Assembly: GCA_024640085.1 (NCBI GenBank)
Contig: JAHEFR010000001.1
Coordinates: 124,001 to 188,000 of the forward strand
From: Gammaproteobacteria bacterium
GTDB lineage: Bacteria; Pseudomonadota; Gammaproteobacteria; Steroidobacterales; XN24
Direction: 5' to 3'
Length of the DNA stretch: 64,000 bases
The first letter of the stretch is position 1; each line of letters opens with the position of its first letter. The position numbers and the translations under genes are program-made. The notes below the pieces were generated by a model. The model saw nothing but the letters and a program-made list of their open reading frames with translations, was not told the DNA's origin and ran no database searches. This document shows, piece by piece, positions 21,340 to 25,416 of the stretch.

Positions 21340-23466
21340 ATGAGCCCTGCCGACAAACGACAGCGCCCGGACGAGGCCTCGCTGGATGGCGAACTGGACG
21401 CGCTGGTCGAGTACCTGGCGCGCCGCTACCACGCCGGCGCCGGCGGGTCGGTCGTCCTCTGGGAGCAGCTGCCTGACGCCGAGCGAAAGGTGTTCCTGTC
21501 CCGAGCGCGGCAGACCCTGGTCGCCATCCACGCCGGCGGGTACCGGATCACGCATTCACCTGAGGTCGTGGACGAGGGGGCCCCGGCGGGTCTCGCGTCG
21601 GACCCGGATGCCCTGAAACTCCGGATCGCGGAGGCCGAGCATTTCCTCCACGCGGGCGAACCATTGCTGGCTTTCAACGAAGTCCAGCTGGGTCTGGAGT
21701 CATGGCCAGAGAGTGTTCGCCTGAGACAGCTCCAGGGGCTGGCACTGGCACGGAGTGGGGCGACCCGGCGCGCCAATGCCGTGCTGCAGGCGCTTGCCGA
21801 CGAAGGGGTGAGCGATGGCGAGACCCTGGGTCTGCTGGCCCGCACCCACAAGGACATCGGCCTTTCGGCCCTGGATCCCCGGGACAAGCTCGTGCACCTG
21901 ACGGCGGCTTTCCGGATCTACGACAAGGCCTATCGCGATTCGGCCGAGCGTGGCCGGATGGAGGATGCCTATTACACCGGCATCAATGCCGCCACCCTGG
22001 CCCTGCTGCTCAACGATGAGGCCAGAAGCCGGCGTCTGGCGACGGAGGTCAGGGCATTATGCCTACAGGAGCTGGAGAAGCAGGTCTCCGACGACGCCGC
22101 CTACTGGCTGCAGGCGACCCTGGGGGAGGCGGCCCTTATTCTCGGTGAACTGGGCCATGCCCGTTCCGCCTACGAGCAGGCCGCGGGCCTGGCCGGCCAC
22201 CGCTACGGGGATCTGGCCTCCACCCGGCGCCAGGCCAAACTGCTGCTGACCCATCGGGGCGAGCACGCCGAGTGGCTGGGGGCCGCGCTGGCGACTCCAC
22301 CAGTCCTCGTGTTCACCGGGCATATGATCGATGCGCCTGGCCGCGGCACGCCACGATTTCCGCCAGAGCTGGAGGAGCGGGTCGCGATTTCCGTCCGCGA
22401 CACCATCGATTCGATTCAGCCCCTGGCCGCCTACGGTTCGGCTGCCTGCGGTAGCGACATCCTTTGCCTGGAGGCGGTGATGGAACTCGGGGGCGAGACC
22501 CACATCGTTCTGCCGTTCCCGCCGGCGGCTTTCCGCGAAGTCAGCGTGGACTTCGCCGGGAGGGGCGACTGGGGACGCCGATTCGAACGCGTGATCGAGG
22601 CGGCGGAAAGTGTCACAGTCGCCAGTGATCACCGCGCCTCCGGCAGCGTCTCGGCCTTCGAGTACGCCAATCTCATCCTGACGGGCATGGGCAGCCTGAG
22701 GGCGGAGGGCCTGGGGGCAGATGTCGTCGGGCTGGCCGTATGGGATGGGCAGCCTGGCGACGGAGGGGGCGGCACCGGGTCTGCCGTGGAGCTGTGGCGA
22801 CAGCGCGGATACCCGGTGGAGCACGTGCATCCAGGGATCCCGTCCGGACATGAGGGAGCGCCCCTGACGTCCTGCGCCGAGGACACGGGTGACGGGTTGC
22901 CTGTCAATGGATTCCGTCATGAGATCAAGGCCATGCTGTTTGCCGACGCTGTGGGCTACAGCAAGCTGACCGAGGACCAGATACCCATCTTCATATCCAA
23001 TTTCCTCGGTTCCGTGGGACGGCTGAGCAAGCGAAGCGACCATCGACCCATCCACTCCGAAACCGCTGGCGACGGCCTGTACATGGTCTTCTGCAGCGTC
23101 GCCGACGCCGGGCGCTACGCCCTGGCCCTGAGCGAGCTGGTGCATTCCGTGGACTGGGTTGGGGAAGGGCTGCCCGCCGATCTGGACCTGCGCATCGCCC
23201 TCCATTGCGGACCGATTTTCTGCGGGACCGATCCCGTCACCGGCCGGCCTCTCTACACGGGCCCGCATACGAGCAGGACCGCCCGAATCGAGCCGATCAC
23301 GCCTCCGGGCCAGGTCTACGCCAGCGGAGCCTTCGCCGCAGTCGCCGCGGCGGCCGGAGCCGAGGGCTTCGAGTTCCGTTATGTCGGTCGAACCCAGCTG
23401 GCCAAGAAATACGGGTCGCTGCCCCTGTTCCACGTCAGGAGCGCGGCGTTTCCACAGACGACTTGA
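21340..23466 (+). CDS. TPR / SLOG-like / class III nucleotide cyclase fusion
   Basis: This 708-residue cytosolic protein has three parts. Residues about 80-320 are alpha-helical repeats resembling the TRAFs-binding (DUF4071) region seen in other bacterial signalling proteins. Residues about 323-470 look like a SLOG-type Rossmann domain: a GHMIDAP start, then AAYGSAACGSDILCLEA and THIVLPFPP. Residues about 530-700 form a class III cyclase: FADAVGYS with metal Asp536, SETAGDGL with Asp578, the Gly-rich LHCGPIF, and RTARIEP with the transition-state Arg. Glu574 replaces the Lys usual in adenylate cyclases, which hints at guanylate or altered specificity; the usual Asn is Ser. TAGAAT lies 8 nt before the start. 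Confidence 0.8.
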   Translation: MSPADKRQRPDEASLDGELDALVEYLARRYHAGAGGSVVLWEQLPDAERKVFLSRARQTLVAIHAGGYRITHSPEVVDEGAPAGLASDPDALKLRIAEAEHFLHAGEPLLAFNEVQLGLESWPESVRLRQLQGLALARSGATRRANAVLQALADEGVSDGETLGLLARTHKDIGLSALDPRDKLVHLTAAFRIYDKAYRDSAERGRMEDAYYTGINAATLALLLNDEARSRRLATEVRALCLQELEKQVSDDAAYWLQATLGEAALILGELGHARSAYEQAAGLAGHRYGDLASTRRQAKLLLTHRGEHAEWLGAALATPPVLVFTGHMIDAPGRGTPRFPPELEERVAISVRDTIDSIQPLAAYGSAACGSDILCLEAVMELGGETHIVLPFPPAAFREVSVDFAGRGDWGRRFERVIEAAESVTVASDHRASGSVSAFEYANLILTGMGSLRAEGLGADVVGLAVWDGQPGDGGGGTGSAVELWRQRGYPVEHVHPGIPSGHEGAPLTSCAEDTGDGLPVNGFRHEIKAMLFADAVGYSKLTEDQIPIFISNFLGSVGRLSKRSDHRPIHSETAGDGLYMVFCSVADAGRYALALSELVHSVDWVGEGLPADLDLRIALHCGPIFCGTDPVTGRPLYTGPHTSRTARIEPITPPGQVYASGAFAAVAAAAGAEGFEFRYVGRTQLAKKYGSLPLFHVRSAAFPQTT

Positions 23467-23479
23467 ACCGAAGCCTGGC

Positions 23480-23902
23480 CTATCGCGAGAGAGCTTCGGT
23501 TCGGATCGCCGCTCCGTACCCGAGAGCGTCGAAGAAATCCTGGTAGGCCTCCGGGTCCTCCACCAGTTCGCCGTAGAAATAGGCGCAGGCGCGCACCGAG
23601 TACTGTTCCGCGCCCATGGGGCGGACCATGACTACCAGTTGTAACCGCCGTCCGGACACGTACTTGGTGCCATAGGCAAGCCCCAGCGGAGGCTCGGTAT
23701 CGTCCACGACGAACTCCAGGTCCTGCATGGCCGACATTACGCTCCGCAGCAGCGTCAGCTCGTCGCCGGCCTGCCACTGGCGCGTCTGGATTTCGCGCTG
23801 CCGGGCATAATCCCCCGGCAGGGTCATGACCGTTTCCGGCCCCGCGCCGGCATGGGCCAGGCAGGACAGCCCGAGGGTCAGCAGGACGATCAGCGTTTTC
23901 AT
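23480..23902 (-). CDS. Small secreted protein, paralogue of the upstream lipoproteins
   Basis: This 140-residue protein has a signal peptide (MKTLIVLLTLGLSCLAHA). The mature part shares a pattern with the next two genes upstream: QDLEF, a glycine-containing turn, a beta strand ending VVMVRP, and DPEAYQDFFDAL near the end. I do not recognise a named family. It overlaps the previous gene by 4 nt (ATGA), so the set is translated as one operon. It has no lipobox Cys at the right place, unlike the 24919 and 25416 genes. It lies 13 nt from the convergent cyclase gene. Confidence 0.7.
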   Translation of the reverse strand: MKTLIVLLTLGLSCLAHAGAGPETVMTLPGDYARQREIQTRQWQAGDELTLLRSVMSAMQDLEFVVDDTEPPLGLAYGTKYVSGRRLQLVVMVRPMGAEQYSVRACAYFYGELVEDPEAYQDFFDALGYGAAIRTEALSR

Positions 23903-24498
23903 AGCTGCTGCTGTTCGTAGAACAGGCTGGTGCCGAGCAGATCGAAGAACCGCTGAAATATGTCGGGGTCGTGGATGGGCTCCATCCGGGTGGTATTGCC
24001 GTCGGTGTTGAAGACTTCTCGCTGGAGGGTCAGCCGGACACGGAAGCCGTCTTCGCCGCCCGTGCGCTCGGGCATGATCAGCAGGCTGGCCCGCACTTCC
24101 TGCTCCTCGTCCCAGGCGGGTGGGCCCTGTCCGGCCATCAGGCCGATAGCGATGTAGCCAACGACCTGGACGGGATTCACCGCAGAGCCCCGCTTGGACG
24201 CCATCACGAGACCGACCTCGGCGTGGGTGCGACGCACGGTAAAGCCCAGATCCTGCAGGGCTGTGCCCGAGGCGGCCAGCAAGCGCTGTTCAGTGACGTC
24301 GGAGAATCGTCGGGTCTCGGTTGCCCGCCATGTGGGCGCGTCTTCGTCCAGTTCAAGGTAGTCATGGGCGGGCCACAGACCCTGGCAGCCCACCATGGCC
24401 ATGACGACGAGGACCATGCCCCCGGCGCGGCTGCCCCGGGCGAAGGAGCCTGGTGTCCTCGTCGATTCCCCCACCCTGCTGCGGATCGCGGCGGGCAT
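23899..24498 (-). CDS. Putative envelope protein, second paralogue of the set
   Basis: From ATG 24498 this is a 199-residue protein with a long basic N-terminus before a hydrophobic segment and AMVGC, a weak lipobox. ATG 24417 would give a short, conventional lipoprotein signal (172 residues). The mature part shares QDLGF near its start and DPDIFQRFFDLLGTSLF near its end with its neighbours, with an inserted segment (GYIAIGLMAGQ) in between. Function unknown. It is coupled to the gene on each side. Confidence 0.65.
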   Translation of the reverse strand: MPAAIRSRVGESTRTPGSFARGSRAGGMVLVVMAMVGCQGLWPAHDYLELDEDAPTWRATETRRFSDVTEQRLLAASGTALQDLGFTVRRTHAEVGLVMASKRGSAVNPVQVVGYIAIGLMAGQGPPAWDEEQEVRASLLIMPERTGGEDGFRVRLTLQREVFNTDGNTTRMEPIHDPDIFQRFFDLLGTSLFYEQQQL

Positions 24499-24499
24499 A

Positions 24500-24919
24500 T
24501 CAATTCACCCGGCCCGCCGAGATGAATGACGACTGCTGCAGAGAGTTGAAGAAGGTCTGATAGACCTCCGGGTCGTCGATACGCTGGTCGCCCCGCTGAG
24601 CGTTTGCGCGGACCAGGACGGCGTCCTCACCCCTGGGGCGGACGGTGACGGTGAGGGTCACGAGGCCGTCCCGGGATCGTTTGCCGGTGACCGAACCGAG
24701 CCCGGCGTCCGCATTTTCGACCAGGAACCCGAGGTCCTGAAGCGTGTCGATGATATCCCTCATGACGTCGACCTCGTTGGTCGACTCGAAGACCCGGGAC
24801 TGGTAGCTGCGCAACTCGAGCTGACTCTCGTCAGTATCGAAGATAGCCTTCTGTGGCGCCGCCGCGCAGCCGGTGGCGAGCAGTACCACCACCGCCAGCG
24901 TGATTCGCATTCTTGCCAT
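24500..24919 (-). CDS. Putative lipoprotein, first paralogue of the set
   Basis: This 139-residue protein has a clear lipoprotein signal (VVLLATGC). The mature domain begins with a variable stretch, then DTLQDLGFLV, TVTVRPRG and DPEVYQTFFNSLQQSSF. The last motif is shared with the two genes downstream, showing that the three arose by duplication. I chose ATG 24919 because GGAGGC sits 9 nt upstream; the open frame extends further but has no coding character. No function is assigned. Confidence 0.7.
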   Translation of the reverse strand: MARMRITLAVVVLLATGCAAAPQKAIFDTDESQLELRSYQSRVFESTNEVDVMRDIIDTLQDLGFLVENADAGLGSVTGKRSRDGLVTLTVTVRPRGEDAVLVRANAQRGDQRIDDPEVYQTFFNSLQQSSFISAGRVN

Positions 24920-24963
24920 GACGGTTATGCCTCCGGTCCCAATGAGCGGTGAATGAGCGGCGA

Positions 24964-25416
24964 TCAGAATCGAGAGGTGCGATACGAGAAGTCCCGTACC
25001 GCGCCGATGTCGTCGAATCGGACCACCACCGTCAGTGTGCGCTGGGAGCTGCTCGATGCGCCGGATTTGGCGCCGAAAAGGCCGCCGGCCCCGCCGCCGG
25101 CTCCGCCGCTGGCTCCTCCGGCCCCGCCCAGCACGCCAATGGAGCTGTCCGAATAGACGCGATCGGTCGATATCCGGTCGTACACCCAGACCTCCCGACG
25201 GTCCTCGTCCGTGGACACGATGTTGGGCGAACCCAGGGTCTCGAGGACCTGGGCTGCGCTCATCCCCACCCTGATCCCGCTCTGGACCGAGCCCACAGTC
25301 AGCTCGTCCTGCTGGTTGGCCATGGTCCGGGCTTCCGCGATGTCCTCCCTGTGCTGGGCCGCGGTGCAACCGGATGCAATAGCGCCAGCAAGTATCAAAA
25401 CTGCCACATACCGCAT
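24964..25416 (-). CDS. Lipoprotein with SmpA/OmlA-like fold and Gly-Ala-rich segment
   Basis: This 150-residue protein has a good lipobox (AIASGC) and a GGAGG site before ATG 25416. The part IRVGMSAAQVLETLGSPNIV with VWVYD is the pattern of the small SmpA/OmlA (BamE-like) domain. A Gly/Ala/Ser-rich linker (GGAGGASGGAGGGAGG) and a final strand (LTVVVRFDDIGAV) follow. It is first in the four-gene operon. The true BamE is shorter and lacks the Gly-rich segment, so this is probably a different member of the superfamily. Confidence 0.72.
   Translation of the reverse strand: MRYVAVLILAGAIASGCTAAQHREDIAEARTMANQQDELTVGSVQSGIRVGMSAAQVLETLGSPNIVSTDEDRREVWVYDRISTDRVYSDSSIGVLGGAGGASGGAGGGAGGLFGAKSGASSSSQRTLTVVVRFDDIGAVRDFSYRTSRF

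Follow-up and report, generated by a model that had tools for sequence, protein, structure and literature searches.

Which signal would be read, and which nucleotide would be made, by a protein that carries helical repeats, a SLOG-like Rossmann domain and a class III cyclase in a single chain? The question is raised by one gene in the window, as we call the whole 64,000-nucleotide stretch of gammaproteobacterial DNA analysed here. The gene is one uninterrupted open reading frame of 708 codons (Table 1), whose full-length product gave an AlphaFold model with a pLDDT of 89.5 and a pTM of 0.84. Its three-part fusion had been proposed in a preliminary description made from the letters of the DNA, and was borne out by Pfam matches to TPR-S and PF00211 and by Foldseek. 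Taken together, the order of the domains and the conservation of the pocket residues are most naturally read as those of a ligand-gated cyclase. A literature search found no paper uniting TPR-S, SLOG and cyclase; an earlier description is possible, as the papers reportedly most relevant to SLOG and TPR-S, by Burroughs, Aravind and colleagues (2015, 2020), lay outside that search.

Table 1. Features of the gene and its product, in positions of the window.
Feature	Residues	Positions	Strand	Description or basis
Whole gene	708 aa	21340..23466	+	Degenerate RyR region, TPR-S, SLOG, class III cyclase; ORF and full-length AlphaFold model
RyR domain remnant	39-71	21454..21552	+	Pfam RyR E 0.27; alignment with relatives
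TPR helical region	89-316	21604..22287	+	Pfam TPR-S and helices in AlphaFold model
Pfam TPR-S PF20308	120-221	21697-22002	+	E 1.9e-15
SLOG domain	318-496	22291..22827	+	Family conservation, AlphaFold model, Foldseek
Class III nucleotidyl cyclase domain	525-703	22912..23448	+	Pfam, profile, Foldseek, model
First metal-binding Asp	Asp536	22945..22947	+	Kept in 95/96 aligned sequences
First base-specifying position	Glu574	23059..23061	+	Lys in adenylyl, Glu in guanylyl cyclases
Second metal-binding Asp	Asp578	23071..23073	+	Kept in 95/96 aligned sequences
Second base-specifying position	Leu638	23251..23253	+	Asp in adenylyl cyclases; Cys, Ser, Thr, Gly, others in guanylyl cyclases
Transition-state Asn position	Ser645	23272..23274	+	Family: Ser 49, Asn 22, Thr 11
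Transition-state Arg	Arg649	23284..23286	+	Kept in 94/96 aligned sequences

Domain architecture

The output domain was identified by profile comparison. PF00211 (Guanylate_cyc) matched residues 531–688 barely above its curated cut-off (22.0 vs 21.9 bits). A profile of 15 full-architecture relatives matched guanylyl and adenylyl cyclase structures, the best being the guanylyl cyclase 3et6 (E 3.9e-17), which removed doubt over the cyclase identity, and a Foldseek search with the cyclase model returned Rv1900c (TMt 0.83) and Cya2. The helical repeats of the earlier reading were recovered as TPR-S PF20308 at 57.8 bits, above the curated cut-off of 27.6, and Pfam found this domain in all 57 sampled family members. 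When the same 15-protein profile was compared with structures, the TPR part resembled the regulatory region of ASK1/MAP3K5 (5ulm, E 2.2e-6). The likeness to that region and to other TPR-S proteins is that of a helical sensor module; the window protein differs from ASK1/MAP3K5 in having a cyclase, not a protein kinase, as its output.

An RyR-type N-terminal domain had been overlooked in the preliminary description. Pfam detected it at the N terminus of 27 of the 57 sampled members, with E-values down to 2.4e-27. The copy in the window protein is degenerate, scoring 11.9 bits with PF02026, below the curated cut-off of 27.4, and the alignment shows that it lacks the central EGWxxGxxRDDxxKxHP loop of its relatives. 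A C-terminal second RyR-like stretch was seen in the product of a gene upstream of a Rubripirellula cyclase (L098:3523-5100).

Active site and probable product

Both metal-binding aspartates and the transition-state arginine, which the preliminary description had reported as kept, are near-invariant in a 96-sequence alignment, and this points to selection for catalysis. The alignment also upheld its Glu574 in place of Lys and its Ser, at residue 645, in place of Asn. When the protein is aligned with Chlamydomonas sGC beta (3et6), ETAGD pairs with ETIGD, Leu638 with Cys and Ser645 with Asn. The protein is like other class III cyclases (Cya2, CyaB, Rv1900c, CYG12/sGC) in its fold, metal Asp pair and Arg, and like Cya2, RhGC and sGC in the Glu at the base position; it differs from class III cyclases in its TPR-S and SLOG fusion and in Leu638, Ser645 and Ala576.

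Glu574 is not an error, since two near relatives share it. ETAGD recurs in L156, from a genome of the same genus (66% across the C-terminal half, the gene being incomplete owing to a run of N), and in L154, from a genome of the same family (53% over the full length). A further relative, L155, reads ETWGD, again with Glu at 574. In pattern-free searches, position 574 was Glu in nine proteins, Asn in nine, Asp in one and Lys in none (n = 19, window protein included). Among the wider family members read, Asn was the commonest residue, Glu recurred and Lys was absent, although residue counts at 574–578 from this alignment-scan sample of 80 loci are biased by its having been picked with the pattern [NE][TS]WGD. 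A quick tree, which predates the addition of L154–L157, placed at least four changes at this position and three separate Glu groups, Glu having arisen three times or more. In an HMM alignment, the base position of the genome's four remaining cyclases is occupied by Gln, Asp, Asp and Lys. With Asn, Gln and Asp at equivalent sites in family and genome, a residue other than Lys is therefore ordinary. The preliminary description had correctly seen Glu574, but the absence of Lys from the family members read, the recurrence of Glu and the Gln, Asp and Lys of the genome's other cyclases weaken any view of it as unusual. Ser in place of Asn is likewise common in the family.

What Glu implies is more specific. 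Guanylyl cyclases are usually marked by Glu where adenylyl cyclases have Lys (PMC4215837, PMC4886424), and the Glu at the base position of RhGC contacts guanine N1/N2 (PMC7384201). By analogy with these enzymes, Glu specifically, unlike a mere non-Lys residue, points to GTP, and the product of the window protein is probably cGMP. The earlier suggestion of cGMP therefore remains plausible from the guanylyl mark, and the alternative offered with it, an unusual nucleotide, found no positive support.

It is somewhat unlikely, but deserves weight, that the enzyme is instead an adenylyl or broad-specificity cyclase, in which Glu574 and Leu638 do not set a preference for GTP and which yields either cAMP or several products mixed. 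The variability of position 574, with Asn usual in the family and Gln, Asp or Lys in the other cyclases of the genome, would be in keeping with this. So would the second base site. Glu574 fits the published first site, but Leu638 lies outside the published second-site guanylyl set of Cys/Ser/Thr/His/Ala/Gly (PMC4215837); its side chain is unable to hydrogen-bond a base, and the Leu, Met (L154) or Lys found there among near relatives are atypical for guanylyl cyclases. Changes at base-specifying sites, moreover, often lower activity rather than convert specificity (PMC4215837). What favours a guanylyl cyclase nonetheless is the identity of the residue, as Glu specifically is the guanylyl mark (PMC4886424) and is kept across the host's own bacterial family.

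We give a small chance to the cyclase domain being inactive, with the protein serving as a nucleotide-binding scaffold or receptor. Ser645 at the transition-state Asn position would fit this, as would the unusual Ala576, where the family has a near-invariant Trp, and decay does happen in the family, since the metal Asp is gone from one relative (L052). The near-invariance of the metal Asp pair and Arg speaks against it, and known cyclases can do without the Asn: Rv1900c has His at that position (PMC4886424). The L052 protein (L052:1459-3084) lacks the GD motif as well and keeps its TPR and SLOG parts, and can be described as a natural pseudo-cyclase.

Family breadth and gene neighbourhoods

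The family is widespread across many phyla, a point missed in the preliminary description. A plain single-protein scan of genome contigs found no relatives; an alignment scan found the family, with 362 loci encoding relatives, the best 80 of which belong to Cyanobacteriota, Verrucomicrobiota, Acidobacteriota, Planctomycetota, Myxococcota, Thermodesulfobacteriota, Pseudomonadota, Chloroflexota and others. Three loci titled 'Bordetella parapertussis' (L125, L138, L141) come from metagenome bins, and these names may be wrong because their cyclases group with other Pseudomonadota bins. Neither NCBIfam nor PADLOC has a name for the family. PADLOC left the window protein unmatched, its PycC model included, and seven members of the 57-protein family set matched PycC weakly (best 3.4e-7); membership of a defence system by PADLOC was rejected on this basis.

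Neighbourhoods were examined at 95 loci, with TIR genes called by a TIR profile. Of 51 directly downstream genes on the same strand 14 encoded a TIR protein, whereas none of the 39 on the opposite strand did (Fisher p 2e-4), and at positions 3–5 on either side the figure was no more than 2 of 325. The TIR count is slightly inflated by L135, L140 and L143, which are nearly identical; counting them once gives a p of 9e-4. Beyond these 14, Pfam identified an additional same-strand downstream TIR at L102. TIR genes were also found among the upstream same-strand genes (6/50). In L154, the closest relative over the full length, a TIR-TPR gene precedes the cyclase gene by ~2 kb, both being on one strand. 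The TIR-linked loci are scattered over several tree branches. Among the downstream partners scanned, Pfam recognised a TIR domain in seven; the scanned partners carry TPR, WD40, BioY-like or FGE-sulfatase domains, and none has a cNMP-binding domain.

Other kinds of neighbour were seen as well. DUF4062-type partners occur at L002 and L080 (Pfam) and at L084 (by likeness to L080). In two Glu-type relatives a STAS-domain gene stands immediately before the cyclase gene on the same strand, at a distance of 4 bases (L037:1087-1446, L043:553-918; Pfam E 7.6e-21 for the L037 copy). At L041, L042 and L046 the gene upstream of the cyclase encodes an unnamed protein of 149–184 aa, and the one scanned had no Pfam match.

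The window gene itself has a different setting: neither a TIR gene nor another effector was found adjoining it. A DUF3422 gene lies upstream in divergent orientation, lipoprotein-like genes lie downstream in convergent orientation, and the neighbours also include ZnuA/ZnuB-like and porin-like genes. Three genes farther downstream are common to the same-genus genome, where they stand beside that genome's own cyclase copy, and by this partial synteny the gene looks like a resident chromosomal gene, not a defence-island cassette. A defence-island setting was rejected given this neighbour list, a gene GC near that of the neighbouring genes and the partly kept synteny. In the host genome a single TIR_2 gene was found, on another contig; the genome also encodes ~10 cNMP-binding proteins, which are candidate receptors. 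Adjacent to the cyclase gene, consecutive minus-strand ORFs (23480-25416) encode small lipoprotein-like proteins that share an 'LQDLxF.V' stretch; the first two have no Pfam match, and the cluster looks paralogous.

The recurrent cyclase-TIR pairs of the relatives recall Pycsar (PycC with PycTIR or PycTM), which likewise has a class III cyclase, and they raise a slim chance that the protein is a pyrimidine cyclase of a Pycsar-like defence, with cCMP or cUMP as its signal to an effector of the TIR or membrane type; the weak PycC matches in relatives lean the same way. PycTIR, however, carries a cNMP-binding domain (PMC11224242), and the scanned TIR partners, having none, are unlike PycTIR receptors. 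The window protein further differs from Pycsar in its large N-terminal sensor and in receiving no PADLOC call. The layout does not fit that of Pycsar, with the PycC model unmatched and no cNMP-binding effector adjacent. For reference, the UTP/CTP residues of the PycC clades are Y50/D94/R97, F100/R142/Q144 and F60/K104/F109 (PMC11224242).

The SLOG domain as a candidate sensor

No SLOG model in Pfam matched the window protein or the 57-member family set, and structure was therefore used instead. An AlphaFold model of residues 316–496 built from 65 sequences reached a pLDDT of 90 and a pTM of 0.87. Searched against the PDB with Foldseek, it matched YpsA best (2nx2, E 1.4e-7, TM 0.66), then DprA (7e-6), Moco carrier protein (2e-4) and ShosA, all with E <0.001, and TRPM2 and LOG (LOG with AMP, E 1.6e-3) came close behind ShosA. 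All six are proteins that we take to belong to the SLOG superfamily. A SLOG-type Rossmann fold for residues 316–496 is supported by this model, with G327, G371, D373, E378, P392, W411, G449 and W486 conserved; the earlier SLOG assignment thus stands on fold, and sequence libraries did not corroborate it. The predicted fold is what the domain has in common with YpsA, DprA, LOG and Moco carrier proteins; the lack of a Pfam match and an incomplete LOG catalytic motif set it apart.

A GGT motif lies at residues 477–479, near the domain end, but the LOG motif PGGxGTxxE is not kept: the window protein reads GGGGTGSA, with Ala482 at the Glu position. This makes a binding role likelier than LOG-type catalysis. 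That the SLOG domain is an enzyme beside the cyclase (a LOG-like nucleotide phosphoribohydrolase) and not a sensor, as the GGT motif and the LOG structures among the Foldseek matches might suggest, has scarcely any probability given the broken motif and a nearest structure that is YpsA, not LOG. Within the scanned loci, L005, L007, L008 and L009 hold short ORFs of scarcely more than the SLOG domain ('FSGHMID...') that lack a cyclase, and L004 and L010 join a SLOG domain to TPR-S behind a different N-terminal domain.

A binding role has a precedent in Thoeris, where the enzyme attached to a SLOG domain is activated once the SLOG pocket has bound a cADPR isomer produced by a TIR protein (PMC11204291). 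Like ThsA (SIR2-SLOG), the window protein has SLOG attached to an output enzyme, and many relatives have a TIR gene next door; it differs in that its output is a class III cyclase where ThsA has a SIR2 NADase, and in having no TIR neighbour. Nor does the layout fit that of Thoeris, which pairs a SIR2-SLOG or TM-macro ThsA with a ThsB TIR gene: Pfam matched neither a SIR2 nor a macro domain in the window protein, and no TIR gene adjoins it.

A possible nucleotide relay

The reading we favour, with confidence that is about even, is that of a soluble ligand-gated cyclase whose TPR-S/SLOG part senses a nucleotide, perhaps one made by a TIR protein, and relays it, here probably as cGMP. The sensor part, comprising the TPR-S superhelix and SLOG and, in many relatives, RyR, would bind a small nucleotide-derived ligand. 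Binding would rearrange the C-terminal cyclase domains, which would have to pair as a homodimer for activity, and so switch cyclic nucleotide synthesis on or off. With Glu574, the most probable substrate of the window protein and its closest relatives would be GTP, and their most probable product cGMP. The simplest use of the gene pairing would be a relay: an NAD-derived signal made by TIR would be detected by SLOG/TPR-S and amplified by the cyclase in the form of a cyclic mononucleotide, which would then act on receptors elsewhere in the cell. We infer this TIR-to-cyclase relay from gene adjacency in relatives, the window gene having no TIR neighbour of its own; a role in defence may follow.

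More speculatively, and in our view unlikely, the family may be an undescribed two-step system in which a TIR's NAD-derived nucleotide is received by RyR/TPR-S/SLOG and answered by the cyclase with a second signal, a cyclic mononucleotide that would differ between Asn-type and Glu-type members. Since natural relatives divide into Asn and Glu types at the base-specifying residue, they allow cyclase specificity to be tested directly.

The family spans many phyla, yet the current defence-gene library does not call it. Nucleotide signalling is already known to use TIR modules, SLOG modules and class III cyclases individually; a receptor-cyclase that could turn one nucleotide signal into another would, if true, link the Thoeris-like and Pycsar-like worlds.
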